Of a DNA stretch of 64,000 nt, positions 31,411-39,918 are shown piece after piece (within the stretch, counting starts at the first letter, position 1; each line of letters starts with the position of its first letter). The stretch comes from Polaribacter dokdonensis. GTDB lineage: Bacteria; Bacteroidota; Bacteroidia; Flavobacteriales; Flavobacteriaceae. Location of the stretch: assembly GCF_024362345.1 (NCBI RefSeq), contig NZ_CP101505.1, positions 454,001-518,000 of the forward strand. Direction: 5' to 3'. The notes under the pieces were generated by a model that worked only from the letters and a program-made list of their open reading frames with translations, was not told where the DNA came from and did no database searches. Both the position numbers and the translations under genes were made by a program.

Positions 31411-31740
31411 ATGGAAAAATTAAATTGGAGTAAAAAAGAATTTGAAGTTTATGTACTTCTTTTTGCTGCACATTGCAATCATTTTGAATCAAAAGAAGAG
31501 CAAGAATATATTCTAGACAGGGTAGATGAAAAAATGTATAACAAAATTCATACTGAAGTTGTAATAGATTCAGAAGAAACAAACCTGAACAAAATACAAC
31601 AATATTTAGCTGAAAATCATTTTGAGCAAGCAGAGAAAGAGGCTCTAATTAAAGATATAAAAAATGTGTTTTTTGCTGATGGTACTGTAGATGCAATAGA
31701 AAAGAAGATTTTTTCTTTATTAAAAAAAATAATAGATTAA
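31411..31740 (+). CDS. Small acidic helical protein, TerB-like (weak)
   Basis: 109-aa cytoplasmic protein, 2 nt after the rhodanese stop and so probably co-transcribed. It is predicted to be all helical, with acidic clusters. The C-terminal FADGTVDAIEKKIFSLLKKI resembles the second half of TerB-type domains (acidic D-x-x-x-x-x-E). I give this only as a weak similarity; the function is unknown. Confidence 0.7.
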   Translation: MEKLNWSKKEFEVYVLLFAAHCNHFESKEEQEYILDRVDEKMYNKIHTEVVIDSEETNLNKIQQYLAENHFEQAEKEALIKDIKNVFFADGTVDAIEKKIFSLLKKIID

Positions 31741-31769
31741 TATTTAACAAAAATTTTCAGCTTTAGTTT

Positions 31770-31801
31770 TTGGTGTAATTAAAATAAAAGTAAGATATTT
31801 G
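31770..31801 (+). promoter_or_regulatory. Promoter of the his leader/operon
   Basis: TTG at 31770-31772, 21 nt, then GATATTTG at 31794-31801 (one base off TAnnTTTG). Spacing is within the usual Bacteroidota range, and the predicted start is about 10 nt before the leader-peptide ATG. It lies downstream of the TerB-like gene, so the his operon has its own promoter. Confidence 0.55.
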
Positions 31802-31818
31802 TAACAATAAAGAAAGAC

Positions 31819-31875
31819 ATGACATTTATTCAAAATCATCATCATCATTTTTACAATTGCTCTCAAGCGATTTAA
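31819..31875 (+). CDS. hisL: His operon leader peptide (HisL-type) with four consecutive His codons
   Basis: An 18-codon reading frame, MTFIQNHHHHFYNCSQAI, with four CAT codons in a row at 31837-31848. It ends ~30 nt before an intrinsic terminator and ~110 nt before hisG, the classical layout of a his attenuator: when charged His-tRNA is scarce the ribosome stalls on the His run and the terminator fails to form. The frame is far too short for automatic gene calling. No sequence homology to enterobacterial HisL beyond the His run is claimed. It sits directly downstream of a Bacteroidota-type promoter. Confidence 0.85.
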   Translation: MTFIQNHHHHFYNCSQAI

Positions 31876-31960
31876 AAATGTATTGAATAAAATCAAGATA
31901 TTTATAAACCTGTTTGAGCAAATCAAACAGGTTTTTATTTTTAAACCGAATTTGCTCAAA
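31857..31960 (+). promoter_or_regulatory. His attenuator: terminator with competing pairings
   Basis: The terminator stem AAACCTGTTTG (31906-31916) with CAAACAGGTTT (31924-31934), followed by TTTATTTTT, would stop transcription before hisG. Two competing pairings are visible. TTGCTC inside the leader peptide end (31857-31862) matches GAGCAA (31916-31921) at the terminator loop, a possible antiterminator. TTTGAGCAAAT (31913-31923) is a perfect 11-nt complement of ATTTGCTCAAA (31950-31960) downstream. The roles of the alternative stems are inference and need RNA folding. Confidence 0.75.
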
Positions 31961-31983
31961 TCTATTTAAATTAAAATTTAAAA

Positions 31984-32841
31984 ATGAGTTACTTAAGAAT
32001 TGCAGTACAAAAATCAGGAAGATTAAATGAAGATTCAATGAGAATCTTAAAAGACATTGGTATTTCTATAGATAATGGAAAAGACCAATTAAAAGCTTCA
32101 GCAAGAGACTTTCCTGTAGAAGTATTTTATCTGAGAAATGGAGATATTCCTCAATATTTAAGAGATGGAGTAGTAGATGCTGCTATTATTGGAGAAAATA
32201 TTTTAATAGAAAAAGGAAGCGATTTAGATTTTGTAGAACGTTTAGGATTTTCTAAATGTAAAGTATCGATTGCAGTACCTAAAGATTCTAAGGCAAATTC
32301 TCTAAAAGATTTAGAAGGTAAAAGAATTGCTACTTCTTATCCAGAAACTGTAAAACAGTTTTTAGCAGAACAAAATATAGATGCGCAATTACACATCATT
32401 AATGGTTCTGTAGAAATTGCACCAAATATTGGTTTAGCAGATGGTATTTGTGATATTGTTTCAAGTGGAAGTACATTGTTTAAGAACGGTTTAAAAGAGA
32501 TTGAAGTTCTTTTAAAATCAGAAGCAGTTTTAGCAGTTTCACCTGAAATAGATGAAGAAAGAAAGCAAATTTTAGAAAAAATACAATTTAGAATTCAGTC
32601 GGTTTTAAAAGCAAGAAATTCTAAATATGTATTGCTAAATGCACCAAATGAAAAATTAGATAAAATTTTAGATTTATTACCTGGTATGAGAAGCCCAACT
32701 GTATTACCATTGGCTGAAAAAGGTTGGAGTTCTGTACATACAGTAATTAGCAAAAATGATTTCTGGAATATTATTGATGAATTAAAAGCTAATGGAGCAG
32801 AAGGAATTTTAGTTTGCCCAATAGAAAAAATGGTGCTTTAA
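31984..32841 (+). CDS. hisG: ATP phosphoribosyltransferase, long form
   Basis: First enzyme of histidine synthesis, joining ATP and PRPP. At 285 aa it is the long, self-sufficient form with a C-terminal ACT-like regulatory domain (~210-285, MRSPTVLPLAEKGWSSVHTVI), so no HisZ is needed and none is seen. N-terminal features are LRIAVQKSGRLNEDS and RDGVVDAAIIGENIL, plus the PRPP-binding DGICDIVSSGSTL (~150). It is normally feedback-inhibited by histidine. It is first in the operon, right after the attenuator. Confidence 0.97.
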   Translation: MSYLRIAVQKSGRLNEDSMRILKDIGISIDNGKDQLKASARDFPVEVFYLRNGDIPQYLRDGVVDAAIIGENILIEKGSDLDFVERLGFSKCKVSIAVPKDSKANSLKDLEGKRIATSYPETVKQFLAEQNIDAQLHIINGSVEIAPNIGLADGICDIVSSGSTLFKNGLKEIEVLLKSEAVLAVSPEIDEERKQILEKIQFRIQSVLKARNSKYVLLNAPNEKLDKILDLLPGMRSPTVLPLAEKGWSSVHTVISKNDFWNIIDELKANGAEGILVCPIEKMVL

Positions 32842-32853
32842 AATTTATTGTAG

Positions 32854-34137
32854 ATGAAAGTTATTCTAAATCCTAAAAAAGAAATATGGTCTGCAATTTT
32901 AGAAAGACCTACTAAAACAGTAGATGATATTGAAGCTACAGTTTCTAAAATTTTTAAAGAAGTTCAAGAAACTGGAGATGTTGCTGTTAACAAGTACACT
33001 AACCAATTTGATAAGGTGCAATTAACTTCTAATTCTGTAACTTCAAATGAAATTGAAGAAGCAAGTAAAAGTGTATCTCAAGAATTAAAAGATGCTATTA
33101 AACTAGCTTATGATAATATTAGTAAATTTCATCAAGCACAAAAAACAAACAAAGTAGCTGTTGAAACTGCGAATGGGGTTAATTGTTGGCAAGAAAAAAG
33201 ACCAATTCAAAAAGTTGGTCTGTACATTCCAGGAGGAACAGCACCACTTTTTTCTACGGTTCTAATGTTAGCAGTTCCTGCACAAATTGCAGGTTGTAAA
33301 GAAATTGTATTGTGTTCTCCACCAAATACTGAAGGTAAAATTCATCCAGCTATTTTGTATACAGCTAATTTATGTGGGGTAACAAAAATTATTAAAGTTG
33401 GTGGAATTCAAGCTATTGCTGGTTTAACCTTTGGAACAGCAAATATTCCACAAGTATATAAAATTTTTGGTCCAGGAAACCAATATGTTACAGTTGCAAA
33501 GCAAATAGCAACAAAATTTGGTGTTGCTATAGATATGCCTGCAGGACCTAGTGAATTGTTAGTTGTTGCAGATGATTCAGCAAATGCGAGTTATGTAGCA
33601 TCAGATTTGTTAAGTCAAGCAGAGCATGGAGTAGATTCACAGGTAATTTTAGTATCTACTTCTAAACAATTAATTAATGATGTAGAAACTGAATTGAATT
33701 CACAGATTGAGCAATTATCTAGAAAAGAGATTGCAAAAAAAGCAATCGCGAATTCAAAATCAATTTTAGTTGCTTCAGATGCAATTGCATTAGACTTAAT
33801 TAATGATTATGGCCCAGAACATTTTATTGTTTGTACGAATGATAACAATTATTACGTAGATAATATTGCTAATGCAGGCTCTGTTTTTATTGGAAATTAT
33901 ACTCCAGAAAGTGCAGGTGATTATGCTTCAGGTACCAATCATACTTTACCTACAAATGGTTATGCAAAAAACTATTCAGGCGTTAACTTAGACAGTTTTA
34001 CAAAAAGTATTACGTTTCAAGAAATATCTGCAGCAGGTATTCAGAATATTGGAAATGCCATAGAAATAATGGCTGCAGCAGAAGGTTTAGATGCGCATAA
34101 AAATGCTGTTACACTTCGTTTAAAAGATTTACAATAA
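32854..34137 (+). CDS. hisD: Histidinol dehydrogenase
   Basis: NAD- and zinc-dependent enzyme that oxidises histidinol to histidine in the last two steps. It is full length (427 aa). It has VGLYIPGGTAPLFSTVLMLA, GPGNQYVTVAKQ, the DMPAGPSELLVVAD stretch, DLLSQAEHGVDSQVILV, and the catalytic NDYGPEHFIV with the terminal SGTNHTLPT (zinc ligands). It is 12 nt after hisG. Its stop overlaps the hisC start by one base. Confidence 0.97.
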   Translation: MKVILNPKKEIWSAILERPTKTVDDIEATVSKIFKEVQETGDVAVNKYTNQFDKVQLTSNSVTSNEIEEASKSVSQELKDAIKLAYDNISKFHQAQKTNKVAVETANGVNCWQEKRPIQKVGLYIPGGTAPLFSTVLMLAVPAQIAGCKEIVLCSPPNTEGKIHPAILYTANLCGVTKIIKVGGIQAIAGLTFGTANIPQVYKIFGPGNQYVTVAKQIATKFGVAIDMPAGPSELLVVADDSANASYVASDLLSQAEHGVDSQVILVSTSKQLINDVETELNSQIEQLSRKEIAKKAIANSKSILVASDAIALDLINDYGPEHFIVCTNDNNYYVDNIANAGSVFIGNYTPESAGDYASGTNHTLPTNGYAKNYSGVNLDSFTKSITFQEISAAGIQNIGNAIEIMAAAEGLDAHKNAVTLRLKDLQ

Positions 34138-35183
34138 TGAATGTTTTAGATTTAGTTAGAGATAATATCAAAAATATTAAGCCTTATTCATCTGCTAGAG
34201 ATGAATACAAAGATGCCACTTCAGAAAGTATGATTTTCTTAGATGCTAATGAAAATCCTTTCGAAAATGGTGTAAATCGTTATCCTGATCCACAACAAAA
34301 TGATGTAAAAGATCTTTTAGTGAACATTAAAAATGTTACTAAAGAAAATATTTTGTTAGGTAATGGAAGTGATGAAGTTTTAGATTTAATTTTTAGAGCT
34401 TTTTGTGAACCAAATAAAGATAATATTATCACATTACCACCAACTTATGGTATGTATTCTGTATTAGCTAATATCAATGCTATAAAGAATAAAAAGGTTT
34501 TATTAACCGAAGATTTTCAGCCTAAAGTCGATCAGATTATAGATGCTGTTGATAACAACAGTAAAATTTTATTTTTATGTTCACCCAATAATCCTTCAGG
34601 AAATAGTTTTTCAATAGAGAAAGTAGAAACACTATTAAATAATTTTAAAGGATTAGTAGTAATTGATGAAGCCTATATCGATTTTTCTGAGCAAGAAAGT
34701 TGGTTAAATCGTTTAGAAGAATTTCCAAATTTGGTAATTACACAAACCTTGTCTAAAGCCTATGGTTTAGCAGGAATTCGTTTAGGAGTTTGTTATGCAT
34801 CAAAAGCAGTAATTTCTGTTTTAAATTCGATAAAACCACCTTACAATGTAAACGAATTAACCCAACAAAAAGCTTTTGAAAGATTAAATAAGGTTGATGA
34901 AGTTGCAGCAGAAATTAAAGCAATTAAACAAGAAAGAGAACAATTGATGAATTCTTTAGAGAGCATCAATTTTATATCTAACATTTATCCTTCTGATTGC
35001 AATTTTGTTTTGGTAAAAGTAGATGATGCAACTAAAAGATACAACCAATTAATTCAGTTGGGTATTGTAATTAGAAACAGAACTACACAGCCTTTATGTG
35101 AAAATTGTTTGAGATTTACAGTAGGAACAACAGCTGAAAACGAGAAATTATTACAAGCATTAAAAGAATTACAAAATGCCTAA
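34137..35183 (+). CDS. hisC: Histidinol-phosphate aminotransferase
   Basis: PLP enzyme that transaminates imidazole-acetol phosphate with glutamate. At 348 aa it shows [20 protein letters not shown] at the N-terminus, [12 protein letters not shown], and [21 protein letters not shown] and the PLP lysine in [16 protein letters not shown] are also present, and it ends [16 protein letters not shown]. It overlaps hisD by one base and hisB by 8 nt, so translation is likely coupled. Confidence 0.96.
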
Positions 35184-36315
35184 AAAAGTACTTTTTATAG
35201 ATAGAGATGGAACTTTGGTTCTAGAACCACCTGTAGATTATCAATTAGATAGTTTAGAAAAATTAGAATATTATCCTAAGGTTTTTCAATACATGGCTAA
35301 AATAGCCAATGAATTAGATTTTGAATTGGTAATGGTTACCAATCAAGATGGTTTAGGTACAGAATCATTTCCTGAAGATACCTTTTGGCCTGCTCAAAAT
35401 AAAATCATTTCAGCCTTTGAAAAAGAAAGCGTTGTTTTTTCTGAGGTATGTATTGATAAAACTTTTCCTCATGAAAATGCAGAAACACGTAAACCAAGAA
35501 CTGGTTTATTAACCAAGTATTTTTCTGACGATTATGATTTAGAAAATTCTTATGTTTTGGGTGATAGAATTACAGATATGGAATTGGCTAAAAATTTAGG
35601 GGCTAAAGGTATTTATTTATCTGAAAATCCAGAGTTAGGAGCTGATGAAATTGAAACATCAAAAAAAGAAATTTTAGAAGCAATTGCATTAACAAGCACA
35701 GATTGGAAAACAATTTATGAGTTTTTAAAATTACAAGACAGGGTTGCAGAAATCACAAGAAATACCAATGAAACTAAGATTTATATCAAACTAAATTTAG
35801 ATGGTTCAGGTAATAATGATATTGATACTGGCTTAAAGTTTTTCGATCATATGTTAGATCAAATTGGTAGACATGGCAACATGGATTTAACCATAAAAGT
35901 TGATGGAGATTTAGAAGTAGATGAACATCATACTATAGAAGATACAATGATTGCTTTTGGAGAGCTTTTCAATAAAGCTTTAGGTAATAAATTAGGTATA
36001 GAAAGATATGGTTTTTGTTTACCTATGGATGATTGCTTAGCTCAAGTGGCTGTAGATTTTGGAGGTAGAAATTGGTTAGAATGGGATGCAGAATTTAAAC
36101 GTGAAATGATAGGTGATATGCCTACAGAAATGTTTTATCATTTGTTTAAATCGTTTACAGATGGTGCAAAATGTAACTTAAACATAAAAGCAGAAGGAAC
36201 CAATGAGCATCATAAAATAGAAGGTATTTTTAAAGCGTTTGCAAAAGCTATGAAAATGGCTGTAAAAAGAGATGCCAATAAGATGTTTTTACCATCAACA
36301 AAAGGAATGTTATAA
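35176..36315 (+). CDS. hisB: Bifunctional histidinol-phosphatase / imidazoleglycerol-phosphate dehydratase
   Basis: Fusion of a HAD phosphatase (residues ~1-165) and the dehydratase (~185-379). The phosphatase half has the catalytic [15 protein letters not shown] and a [14 protein letters not shown] motif; the conserved Cys/His zinc loop is partly visible ([12 protein letters not shown]). The dehydratase half has [26 protein letters not shown] and [19 protein letters not shown], the manganese-binding His clusters. The fused layout is that of E. coli HisB and of most Bacteroidota. It overlaps hisC by 8 nt. Confidence 0.97.
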
Positions 36316-36384
36316 TTTAGGTTTTAGCCTTTTGCTTTTAGTTGTTTGCTAAAAGTTAAAAGCCAAAAACCAAAAGCTATTAAA
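36316..36384. repeat. Degenerate inverted repeat between hisB and hisH
   Basis: The 69-nt gap is made of short units such as TTTTGCTTTTAG and its partner CTAAAAGTTAAAAGCC. Together GGTTTTAGCCTTTTG and the later AAAAGCCAAAAACC form a long imperfect hairpin. Similar AAAGCCAAAAGC-type intergenic repeats occur in flavobacteria as far as I recall. It might modulate expression or mRNA stability of the distal his genes. Confidence 0.5.
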
Positions 36385-36966
36385 ATGAAATTAGTAATCA
36401 TAGATTATGGTGCAGGAAACATTAAAAGCATACAGTTTGCTTTTAAAAGATTAGGTTTAGAAGCTGTTTTATCTAATAATATTGATGAAATAAAAGCTGC
36501 AGATAAAGTAATTTTTCCTGGAGTTGGTGAAGCAAGTTCAGCAATGAAAATGCTAAAAGAAAGTGGTTTAGATACAGTAATTCCAACTTTAAAACAGCCA
36601 GTTTTAGGTATTTGTTTGGGTATGCAACTAATGTGTAATTCCTCTGAAGAAGGCAATACCAAAGGTTTAGGTATTTTTGATGTTGCTATTAAAAAGTTTT
36701 CTGAAAAAGTAAAGGTTCCTCAAATGGGTTGGAATGTAATTTATAACTTACAATCAGACTTATTTAAAGGTATTAAGGAAAAAGAATTTATGTATTTGGT
36801 TCATAGTTTTTATGCAGAAAATTGTTCAGAGGCTATAGCAACAACTGATTATGAAATTGAATATGCTTCAGCATTACAGAAAGATAATTTTTATGGAGTA
36901 CAGTTTCATCCAGAAAAGTCTTCTAAAGCAGGTGAACAGATATTAAAAAACTTTTTAGAATTATAA
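36385..36966 (+). CDS. hisH: Imidazole glycerol phosphate synthase, glutaminase subunit
   Basis: Class-I glutamine amidotransferase that feeds ammonia to HisF. I choose ATG 36385 ([15 protein letters not shown], 193 aa) because the alternative upstream TTG reads through the repeat in the gap. The nucleophile Cys lies in [10 protein letters not shown] (~78), and the catalytic His and Glu in [12 protein letters not shown] near the C-terminus. The [10 protein letters not shown] stretch is also typical. It is the only his gene with a sizeable gap upstream. Confidence 0.96.
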
Positions 36967-36967
36967 G

Positions 36968-37705
36968 ATGAGAATAATTCCAGCAATAGATATTATAGAT
37001 GGTAAGTGCGTTCGACTTACAAAAGGCGATTACAATACCAAAAAAATATATAATGAAAATCCTTTAGAGGTTGCCAAAGAATTTGAAGCTTCAGGTATTG
37101 AATACTTACATGTAGTAGATTTAGATGGTGCAAAAGCAAGTGAAATTATCAACTATAAAACTTTAGAACAAATTGCTTCTAAAACCAATTTAAAAATAGA
37201 TTTTGGTGGGGGTTTAAAATCTGATAAAGATTTAGAAATTGCCTTTAATTCTGGTGCAAATCAAATTACAGGTGGAAGTATAGCTGTTAAAAATCCTACT
37301 ATTTTTGAAAGTTGGATTTCTAAATATGGTTCAGATAAAATTATTTTAGGAGCCGATTTTTATCCAGATAATTCAGGAGGAAAAATTGCAACAAATGGTT
37401 GGCAAGAAGAAAGTAGTTTGGCTTTAATTCCTTTTGTAAAAGAGTATCAGAACAAAGGAATTCAATATGTAATTTGTACGGATATTTCTAAAGATGGAAT
37501 GTTGCAAGGACCAAGTTTCAATGTATATTCAGAATTATTATCAAAGGTAAACCCCTTAAAACTAATTGCTTCTGGTGGAATTTCAACTTTTGATGAATTG
37601 CCAAAATTAGCAGAAAATGGTTGTGAAGGTGTTATTATTGGTAAAGCCATTTATGAGAATAAAATCAGTTTAAAGCAATTAGAAAATTTTATTCTTAACA
37701 AATAG
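36968..37705 (+). CDS. hisA: Phosphoribosylformimino-AICAR ribonucleotide isomerase
   Basis: TIM-barrel isomerase (245 aa) acting before HisF/HisH. The N-terminal [22 protein letters not shown] has the catalytic Asp, and the second catalytic Asp lies in [16 protein letters not shown] (~130). The [13 protein letters not shown] and [11 protein letters not shown] phosphate-binding loops are clear. The start is 1 nt after the hisH stop, so coupling is likely. It is followed, unusually, by a lipoprotein gene before hisF. Confidence 0.97.
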
Positions 37706-37709
37706 AAAG

Positions 37710-38525
37710 ATGAAAATAGATATAAAAATCTTATTTATAACCTTGATTTTTGCTATTTCTTGCAATACAAAAAATAATGAAAAGGAAGTATCTAAAACTA
37801 TTGTAGAACATAATAACAAGGGTCTTAAGTTGGTAGCACAACTAGTCGAAAAAGTGGGTTCTTATAAAGACTTACTTAATAAGAACGATGTCATCTACAC
37901 ATACACTTACACAACTCCTGATGGAAAAGCTGATGTTTCTACTGAAAAATATTTATTTGATGGAGAGCTTTCTTATGGTAAATATGAAAAGCATGAAAGA
38001 ACTTTAACCAATTTAGTAGGAACTATTGAACAGGGTTATGATGGTGCAGAGTTTTGGTTAAAGAATGAAGGTGAAATAATAAGAGATAGTATTGCTTTAA
38101 ATCGTGTTAAATTTAACAGACCAACCAACTTTTATTGGTTTACAATGTTTCAAAAATTATTAGATCCTAATTTAATTTATGAGTATTTAGGTGAACAAAT
38201 TATTAATAAAATTTCTTATGATATTGTAAGAATTTCATTTGAATCTAAAGATGAAAAACCTACAGATATATATCAGATATATATAAATAAAGAAACTCAA
38301 TTAGTAGATCAATTCTTATTTACTGTAGCCGATTTTGGAGTTATTCAAGAACCATATATTATGCAAATGGAGTATGAAAAAGTGGATGGCATGTTAATAC
38401 CAAGTAAAAGAAAATATAAGAAATCTACTTGGGATGCCATTATTACTCAAGAACCATGGATAACTGTAAATTGGACCGATATTTCTTTTAATAATGGTTT
38501 AACCGAAAGTGATTTTAAAAAATAA
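37710..38525 (+). CDS. Putative lipoprotein embedded in the his operon (DUF6503-like)
   Basis: 271-aa predicted lipoprotein. The N-terminus MKIDIKILFITLIFAISCNT ends in a lipobox-like AISC (Cys18). The mature part is beta-rich with VIYTYTYTTPDGKADVS, FWLKNEGEIIRDS and a LVAQLVEKVGSYKDLL start, resembling proteins annotated DUF6503 in flavobacteria (from memory). It starts 4 nt after hisA and ends 19 nt before hisF, on the same strand, so it is surely co-transcribed. It has no obvious link to histidine synthesis and is not a pathway enzyme I recognise. Confidence 0.75.
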   Translation: MKIDIKILFITLIFAISCNTKNNEKEVSKTIVEHNNKGLKLVAQLVEKVGSYKDLLNKNDVIYTYTYTTPDGKADVSTEKYLFDGELSYGKYEKHERTLTNLVGTIEQGYDGAEFWLKNEGEIIRDSIALNRVKFNRPTNFYWFTMFQKLLDPNLIYEYLGEQIINKISYDIVRISFESKDEKPTDIYQIYINKETQLVDQFLFTVADFGVIQEPYIMQMEYEKVDGMLIPSKRKYKKSTWDAIITQEPWITVNWTDISFNNGLTESDFKK

Positions 38526-38544
38526 ACGTATCAATTAAAATTAG

Positions 38545-39300
38545 ATGCTTACAAAAAGAATAATTCCTTGTTTAGATATTAAAAACGGACGAACTGTAAA
38601 AGGTGTCAATTTCGTTAATTTAATTGATGCAGGAGATCCAGTAGTTTTAGCAAAACAATATGCAGATTTAGGCGCAGATGAGCTTGTTTTTTTAGATATA
38701 GCTGCAACTTTAGAAAATAGAGGTACAACCTTAGACATGGTTTTAAAAGTTGCTGAGCAAGTAAATATTCCATTTACTGTTGGTGGTGGAATTTCTTCTG
38801 TAGAGCATGTAAATGCCTTATTAAAATGTGGTGCAGATAAAGTTTCTATAAATTCCTCAGCCGTAAAAAGACCAGATTTAATTAATGAATTATCAGACAA
38901 ATTTGGAAGCCAATGTGTGGTTGTAGCAATAGATGCTAAACAAGTTGATGGTGAGTGGTTAGTACATTTGGCAGGAGGTACAATTCCTACAGATATCAAC
39001 CTATTTGAATGGGCTAAAGAAGTTGAAAAACGTGGAGCAGGAGAAATTTTGTTTACCTCAATGAATAATGATGGTACTAAAGCAGGTTTTGCAAATGAAG
39101 CTTTAGCTAAACTATCTACTGAATTAAATATACCAATTATAGCTTCTGGTGGTGCAGGTTCTGTAAAGCATTTTATAGATACTTTTGTAGAAGGAAAATC
39201 TGATGCAGCATTAGCTGCAAGTGTATTTCACTTTGGAGAAATTCCTATACCTGAATTAAAACAAGAATTAAAAGATAATAATATTCCAATTCGATTATAA
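38545..39300 (+). CDS. hisF: Imidazole glycerol phosphate synthase, cyclase subunit
   Basis: TIM-barrel cyclase (251 aa) that uses HisH ammonia to make IGP and AICAR. The N-terminal [20 protein letters not shown] carries the catalytic Asp11, and the second Asp lies in [14 protein letters not shown] (~130). The [12 protein letters not shown] and [11 protein letters not shown] loops bind phosphate. It normally works as a HisF-HisH heterodimer. The preceding gene is the embedded lipoprotein. Confidence 0.97.
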
Positions 39301-39318
39301 ATACCAATTTTAAAACTG

Positions 39319-39918
39319 ATGACAATAGATTTTAATAAAAATAACGATGGTTTAGTGCCTGCAATAATTCAAGATGCTACAACAAAAAATGTCTTAATGT
39401 TGGGCTATATGAACCAGGAAGCTTACAATAAAACAATAGATACAAATAAAGTTACCTTTTATTCTAGATCTAAAAAAAGACTATGGACTAAGGGTGAAGA
39501 AAGTGGTAATGTTTTAGAATTGGTTGATATTAAAAATGATTGTGATAATGATTCTTTATTGATTCAAGTTCATCCAAAAGGACCAACTTGTCATACAGGC
39601 TCTGATACTTGTTGGAAAGAAGAAAACACATCAAACTTTGGTTTTTTATCAACCTTAGAAAATGTTATTTCTGAGAGAGTTGCCAATAAAGAAACTAAAA
39701 AATCTTATGTGGCCAGTTTATTTGATAAAGGAATTAATAAAATTGCTCAAAAAGTAGGAGAAGAGGCTGTAGAAACAGTTATTGAAGCTATGGATAATAA
39801 TGATGATTTGTTCCTTTATGAGTCAGCAGACCTACTATTTCATTACATTATGTTATTACAAGCTAAAGGATTCACTTTAAAAGATATAGAAGCTGAATTA
39901 ATAAAAAGGCAAAAATAA
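39319..39918 (+). CDS. hisIE: Bifunctional phosphoribosyl-AMP cyclohydrolase / phosphoribosyl-ATP pyrophosphatase
   Basis: Fusion of the second and third steps of histidine synthesis (199 aa). The N-terminal cyclohydrolase (~1-105) has VLMLGYMNQEAYNKT, FYSRSKKRLWTKGEESGN, and the metal site DCDNDSLLIQVHPKGPTCH with CHTGSDTCW. The C-terminal pyrophosphatase (~110-199) has KVGEEAVETVIEAMDNND. It closes the operon. The next gene, on the minus strand, begins its stop codon at the adjacent base, and I see no terminator between them. Confidence 0.96.
   Translation: MTIDFNKNNDGLVPAIIQDATTKNVLMLGYMNQEAYNKTIDTNKVTFYSRSKKRLWTKGEESGNVLELVDIKNDCDNDSLLIQVHPKGPTCHTGSDTCWKEENTSNFGFLSTLENVISERVANKETKKSYVASLFDKGINKIAQKVGEEAVETVIEAMDNNDDLFLYESADLLFHYIMLLQAKGFTLKDIEAELIKRQK

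Follow-up and report, generated by a model that had tools for sequence, protein, structure and literature searches.

In the hisL leader of Escherichia coli and Salmonella, a leader peptide with a run of histidines precedes protector, antiterminator and terminator structures that compete before hisG. In translational attenuators such as ermC, a ribosome stalled in the leader alters the pairing by the start of the downstream gene. The accessible part of an account from 2010 names its own Firmicutes case and ermC as the only leader peptides then known outside Proteobacteria and Actinobacteria (PMC2965389). Among Bacteroidota, the Bacteroid-trp leader RF01692 has been described as an attenuator-type leader (PMC2864571), and short ORFs resembling attenuation leaders have been noted in Bacteroides thetaiotaomicron (PMC7366714). 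In Flavobacterium psychrophilum, hisG is among the genes with structured 5' elements that lack an Rfam entry and show conservation across further genera, and leader-peptide attenuation was suggested upstream of amino-acid operons (PMC9723704).

The window analysed here (a 64-kb stretch of DNA from Polaribacter dokdonensis, whose 3.09-Mb genome encodes a HisG 98% identical to HisG of a Polaribacter MAG, locus L001) contains the his operon; the coordinates of its features are collected in Table 1. In the intergenic stretch between the end of a small ORF at 31740 and the start of hisG at 31984, a promoter motif of Bacteroidota type, an 18-codon ORF with histidine codons and a hairpin terminator with a T tail follow one another in this order. 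This arrangement is like that of hisL, but Rfam flags no sequence similarity to the E. coli and Salmonella leader: the window had no Rfam matches at the gathering score, and the 15 obtained for 31700-32050 at E ≤ 10 did not include His_leader (which we take to be family RF00514). As a further difference from these species, no dependence on a Shine-Dalgarno sequence is expected in Bacteroidota (PMC9976891). With the hisG element of F. psychrophilum, the leader shares the occurrence in Flavobacteriaceae, the position before hisG and the lack of an Rfam hit, and both very probably belong to the same family; the accessible part of the F. psychrophilum account, however, gives no hisG leader peptide, no antiterminator and no counterpart of the element termed D below (PMC9723704). 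The view of the original prediction that his attenuation is less documented in Bacteroidota has to be qualified to the extent that this structured hisG element had already been reported. The Bacteroid-trp leader is likewise of attenuator type and from the same phylum, but contains Trp codons, differs in sequence and lacks D. Within the his operon, an ORF of 271 amino acids with a lipoprotein-like start (37710-38525) lies in the hisA-hisF interval and had no Pfam or NCBIfam match.

Table 1. Positions of the his leader elements and the his operon in the 64-kb window of P. dokdonensis.
Feature	Position	Strand	Remarks
Promoter-like pair	31770-31801	+	TTG 31770-31772 and −7 element GATATTTG 31794-31801, from sequence
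Putative leader ORF MTFIQNHHHHFYNCSQAI	31819-31875	+	ATG 31819, TAA 31873-31875, 18 codons
Protector (1:2-type) hairpin	31820-31895	+	Predicted fold; 86% of cells paired, 92 loci
Antiterminator strand 2 (TTGC..TCAAGCG)	31857-31869	+	Inside leader codons C-S-Q-A
Strand 3, terminator 5' arm	31906-31917	+	Common to antiterminator, terminator and D pairing
Terminator loop GCAAA	31918-31922	+	Varies between relatives, matched by D
Strand 4, terminator 3' arm and T-rich tail	31923-31940	+	100% of cells paired, 92 loci
Element D	31950-31960	+	Complementary to strand 3 plus loop, 31913-31923
hisG, first his operon gene	31984-32841	+	TIGR00070, 185 bits, above cut-off
his operon	31984-39918	+	hisG, D, C, B, H, A, unassigned ORF, F, IE by NCBIfam

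Judging from its sequence, the leader before hisG is very probably a ribosome-mediated his attenuator. The assignment is well supported, because the His-run leader and all three hairpin elements (protector, antiterminator, terminator) show conservation, with compensatory changes in the protector; the attenuator originally predicted upstream of hisG was thus borne out in its anatomy as well as in its conservation among relatives. The comparison covered 80 named hisG loci and 30 from further relatives (L001-L110); L104, situated at a contig end and holding just 180 nt upstream, was dropped, and the remaining 109 were reduced to 92 nonredundant loci at 95% similarity. Both elements of the putative promoter, which had been predicted with a TTG upstream of the leader, are present in the sequence, and the motif NAnnTTTG recurs within 75 nt upstream of the leader ATG in 86 of the 92 nonredundant loci (median 18 nt away), compared with 17% of shuffles. 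If the spacing of 4-5 nt between −7 element and transcription start in F. johnsoniae (PMC6847099) applies, transcription would start near 31805-31807.

The predicted 18-codon ORF with four histidines was found at its place in the sequence (see Table 1), its four consecutive His codons occupying 31837-31848. As HHHH occurs at three places in the window (six frames), the His run alone is not decisive; what is decisive is that leader peptide, terminator and D recur in the relatives. In 109 of the 110 loci, the exception being the truncated L104, a terminator follows a leader of the type M-x-F-I-Q-x-H(3-6)..Q-A-x, and the proposed comparison of His codons between relatives therefore yielded a His-rich leader almost throughout; all 92 nonredundant loci contain 3 to 6 His per leader (365 CAT and 15 CAC codons). 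A covariance model of the leader matched 138 of 149 family genomes at E ≤ 0.01 and 123 at E < 1e-6 (counted by E-value alone). In the source genome, this search gave one strong match, the his leader itself (117.7 bits; next 36.5), and no convincing second copy.

The terminator is the only terminator-like site in 31500-32200 (shuffles average 0.1). It consists of a stem of 12 pairs (31906-31917 with 31923-31934), the loop GCAAA and a T-rich tail; the terminator and its T-tail were hence predicted correctly, but not the stem length, which had been given as a perfect 11 bp. The protector pairs are 31820-31822/31893-31895, 31825-31833/31883-31891, 31846-31853/31873-31880 and 31856-31860/31867-31871; the compensatory stem changes that had been proposed as a check are present in this hairpin, e.g. 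at 31856x31871 (AT 31, CG 24, TA 23 in 92 loci) and 31852x31874 (CG 42, TA 35 in 92 loci). Position 31874 is the middle base of the leader stop codon and co-changes with 31852 as the stop is TAA or TGA. For protector plus terminator in an alignment of 25 sequences, pairing, number of double changes and covariation score each lay above the values of the 500 shuffles, with 13 pairs changed on both sides versus 6.5 in the shuffles (0/500). In the antiterminator, TCAAGCG (31863-31869) pairs with 31911-31917 and TTGC (31857-31860) with 31918-31921; the pairing of 31857-31862 with 31916-31921 stated in the original prediction is complementary (TTGCTC/GAGCAA, 6 bp), but the antiterminator is longer than these 6 bp. 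The core TCAAGCG is paired with strand 3 in 98% of cells and the outer TTGC with GCAA in 77% (92 loci); as the core is almost invariant, covariation of the antiterminator goes little beyond that of shuffles, its value being reached in 26 to 146 of 500.

The segment 31805-31985 (181 nt) folds at −33.6 kcal/mol (z −4.1), and none of 200 shuffles was as stable. The antiterminator is predicted to form (0.68 to 0.93) when the mask on the 5' side reaches 31856 or 31860 and the RNA ends within the loop; with the mask extended past the leader stop, pairing of strands 3 and 4 is the sole possibility. The fold without a ribosome, before arm 4 exists, still favored the antiterminator (0.71) over the protector, and the state without ribosome must therefore rest on the order of folding. 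The proposed folding with and without a ribosome block thus gave the antiterminator under the 5' mask as expected, but did not favor the protector in the absence of the ribosome. In full-length folds, which exclude pseudoknots, pairing 3:4 reached 0.88 to 0.96 and pairing of strand 3 with D (3:D) just 0.01 to 0.05. The median energies of the three folds are close (antiterminator −15.5, terminator −16.7, 3:D −14.3 kcal/mol), so that strand 3 has three near-equal partners.

Based on the location of these pairings and on the usual size of the ribosome footprint, we infer the ribosome positions; the switching between the folds and any effect on translation, together with its sign, are likewise inferences. 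If histidine is short, the leader ribosome would stall on the His run and cover the 5' half of the protector; strand 2 (31857-31869) would then pair with strand 3 (31911-31921), and RNA polymerase would read on. If histidine is sufficient, the ribosome would reach the stop codon and cover strand 2, the hairpin 3:4 (31906-31934) would form and transcription would stop.

Beyond these conventional elements, the leader contains D: TTTGAGCAAAT at 31913-31923 is perfectly complementary over 11 bp to ATTTGCTCAAA at 31950-31960, exactly as predicted, and the 3:D pairing represents a helix of 11-14 bp close to the coding mRNA start. The suggestion that this additional pairing downstream of the terminator is of significance was strongly supported by its conservation and by its change together with the loop. 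Compared with dinucleotide shuffles, the D duplex reached p ≤ 0.05 in 77 and p ≤ 0.01 in 69 of the 92 loci. A second set, drawn from the 90 better-scoring of the 138 model-matching genomes (10 were dropped for want of a recognised hisG start and 2 of a terminator), comprised 78 analysable loci of 78 genera, 61 of which reached p ≤ 0.05 and 54 p ≤ 0.01. Since the test failed in 15/92 and 17/78 loci, D is dispensable or misread in these; in L002, L008 and L014, the match is to the loop plus the 3' arm instead.

The 92 loci have 28 types of terminator loop, and D follows the loop. In the loop-D permutation the observed value was 1744 versus 1485.6 (sd 23.9, maximum 1588 in 10,000), with one locus per loop type (28) it was 498 versus 404.3 (0/10,000), and in the second set the observed value was again reached in 0 of 10,000 permutations. 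Among 24 sister pairs on separate branches of the HisG tree, the own D was better in 15, worse in 5 and tied in 4 (p 0.021). D was re-searched for each comparison in the permutation, sister-pair and second-set tests. Of the columns listed in the per-column tree tests, from which 13 of 92 tips without a D call were left out, none reached 0.05 alone. Opposite the U run of strand 3, D has A or G in almost every cell (D-column counts, with 14 of 117 below score left out, are biased upward, because the D windows were chosen as the best complement), despite an upstream neighbourhood of 33% T and 21% C; as far as the sequences go, this suggests that pairing of D with the terminator arm, beyond the loop alone, is kept. 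Taken as a whole, D represents with high probability a selected RNA pairing.

The position of D is fixed with respect to hisG rather than to the terminator. The distance from the D 3' end to the hisG ATG has a median of 15 nt in both sets (23 nt in the window; 5-95% range 13 to 23 nt in the 92-locus set and 12 to 44 nt in the second set), whereas the distance from terminator to D varies more (12 to 37 nt in the 92-locus set); in L086 and L093, where long inserts separate D from the terminator by 78 and 63 nt, the distance to the ATG is still 15 nt. The Flavobacterium loci inspected have this leader too, with D located 15 to 31 nt upstream of the ATG. Spacer inserts of about 40-80 nt with short inverted repeats before hisG occur in L008, L014, L017, L020, L086 and L093; D is lost or changed in the first four of these loci and at its usual place in the last two.

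D appears to be a particular feature of the his leader. In attenuators of the same genus, no D was detected at p ≤ 0.05 in 22 trp and 18 ilv cases (gene starts were assigned automatically, and the distance between leader and terminator is implausible in 6 of the 18 ilv cases), and E. coli K-12 hisL-hisG revealed no D-like complement in a test of the same kind with single-base shuffles (p 0.32). Because trp, ilv and E. coli his were all negative, D is specific to his in this comparison; a general need of attenuators for such an element is ruled out by the trp and ilv results. All 25 loci examined from the genus have a trp leader (WWW) before trpE, and many of its members have an isoleucine-valine leader upstream of ilvD. 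In the source genome, the Bacteroid-trp leader RF01692 (59.4 bits) with the peptide MINKQNISWWWNSLNK is located before trpE (L215:1313-1426); before ilvD (L237:1-1400), an isoleucine-valine leader and terminator were not found. In L231 (947-1018), the minus strand carries a Flavo-1 RNA (RF01705, 72.7 bits) a short way before the ilvD region, and candidates for threonine leaders were seen in 2 of 6 stretches.

In a wider sample of 80 Bacteroidota loci (L111-L190), 72 contained a His-rich short ORF upstream of hisG (2.8% of shuffled sequences; 3/80 on the reverse strand), and his attenuation consequently looks common in Bacteroidota. With the 8 loci without His-rich ORF and 20 without terminator set aside, 52 were tested for D. 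It was significant in 6 of 9 tested loci of other Flavobacteriales families, with wholly different D sequences, e.g. GAAGTGTTT in L181 and CTGGTCGCCAG in L182; outside the order, 3 of 23 tested loci reached p ≤ 0.05, which is near chance apart from genome G207. The locus of the latter (L135), placed outside the order but in the same phylum, has a leader and D of Flavobacteriales type (p 0.010), reflecting either transfer or misplacement. According to these sequence comparisons, his attenuation may be a widespread trait of Bacteroidota, for the most part lacking D beyond Flavobacteriales.

By the time D is transcribed, the terminator has already been passed, and D therefore has no say in whether its own transcript terminates. 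Its constant spacing from the ATG points instead to an action at hisG initiation, which we regard as the probable site of its effect. D would be present on those transcripts only that have passed the terminator, as a third partner for strand 3 plus loop, and would border the hisG initiation region on its upstream side. While strand 2 holds strand 3 in the presence of a stalled ribosome, D would be free; otherwise it would be captured by the terminator loop and arm, and leaky transcripts would be translated poorly. Translation in F. johnsoniae is associated with low structure between −20 and +20, and bS1 has been placed near −12 to −15 (PMC6847099); a second lock that quiets leaky transcripts is favored because a helix ending at −15 touches this edge of the bS1 and low-structure region. 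That the effect of D on hisG is repressive is nonetheless a tentative reading, to which we give slightly less than an even chance. The likeness to ermC-type attenuators has its bounds, as the his leader switches mainly by its terminator and its D helix does not reach the start codon. Simple occlusion of the hisG start by D was unsupported: with D and strand 3 taken as paired, the mean predicted openness of the start region rose from 0.61 to 0.72 (79 loci).

This slightly more open start region in the D:3 state suits the main rival, in which D acts as a clamp that captures strand 3 after the terminator has been passed, blocks re-formation of the hairpin, keeps the start region open and thus favors hisG expression. 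Also in line with a clamp are the end of D about 15 nt before the ATG, which spares the A-rich spacer in between (63% A), and the energies in the window, where 3:D is nearly as stable as 3:4 (−14.3 vs −14.9). However, a clamp has no need of the fixed ATG distance that D has, and we know of no harm done by a re-formed terminator in a finished mRNA; we consider a clamp that helps expression unlikely. The fixed spacing, which fits initiation better, equally counts against an action of D on mRNA processing or stability, e.g. by way of a cleavage or protection site formed by 3:D; a helix of 11-14 bp near the coding mRNA start would be compatible with it, but the idea has little probability.

The same complementarity would also serve an action in trans, in which the terminated leader RNA, ending as it does in an intrinsic terminator, would function as a small RNA and silence read-through his mRNA through pairing of its terminator loop with D. 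For the trp attenuator of Sinorhizobium, trans action of the RNA or peptide has been described (PMC7298713); in the his leader, by contrast, each target mRNA carries the same strand in cis and the terminator stem sequesters most of the pairing strand, which makes silencing in trans improbable. Alternatively, D might be a protein-binding or other DNA site, or else a second promoter, with the complementarity being incidental; the sequence GTATTTG, which is found in many of the Polaribacter D regions among the loci listed, resembles part of a −7 element. Yet the D of Tenacibaculum type reads GATTTACTCAAAC and has no TTTG, changes in D compensate those in the loop, and the spacing of the arms varies widely, unlike in an operator; the promoter or operator reading was rejected, as D varies with the loop and TTTG is lost in loci of Tenacibaculum type, and a DNA-level role of any such kind is very improbable.

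In comparison with these alternatives, a his transcription attenuator with a second, post-terminator output by way of D is the best explanation of the whole, and one that we hold with about even confidence. The attenuator itself is real and largely expected; D is undescribed as far as the openly accessible literature was searched, in which no description of a comparable post-terminator element was found. The leader constitutes an RNA family backed by covariation that is absent from Rfam release 15. For Flavobacteriales, we tentatively suggest, at somewhat less than even confidence, a two-output attenuator in which strand 3 is contested by strand 2, arm 4 and D, and in which the leader RNA possibly acts in trans as well. 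Textbook attenuation has one output, termination; D would add a second, post-transcriptional output. If this reading is true, one stalled ribosome would set both the termination and the initiation rate of hisG without Shine-Dalgarno pairing.
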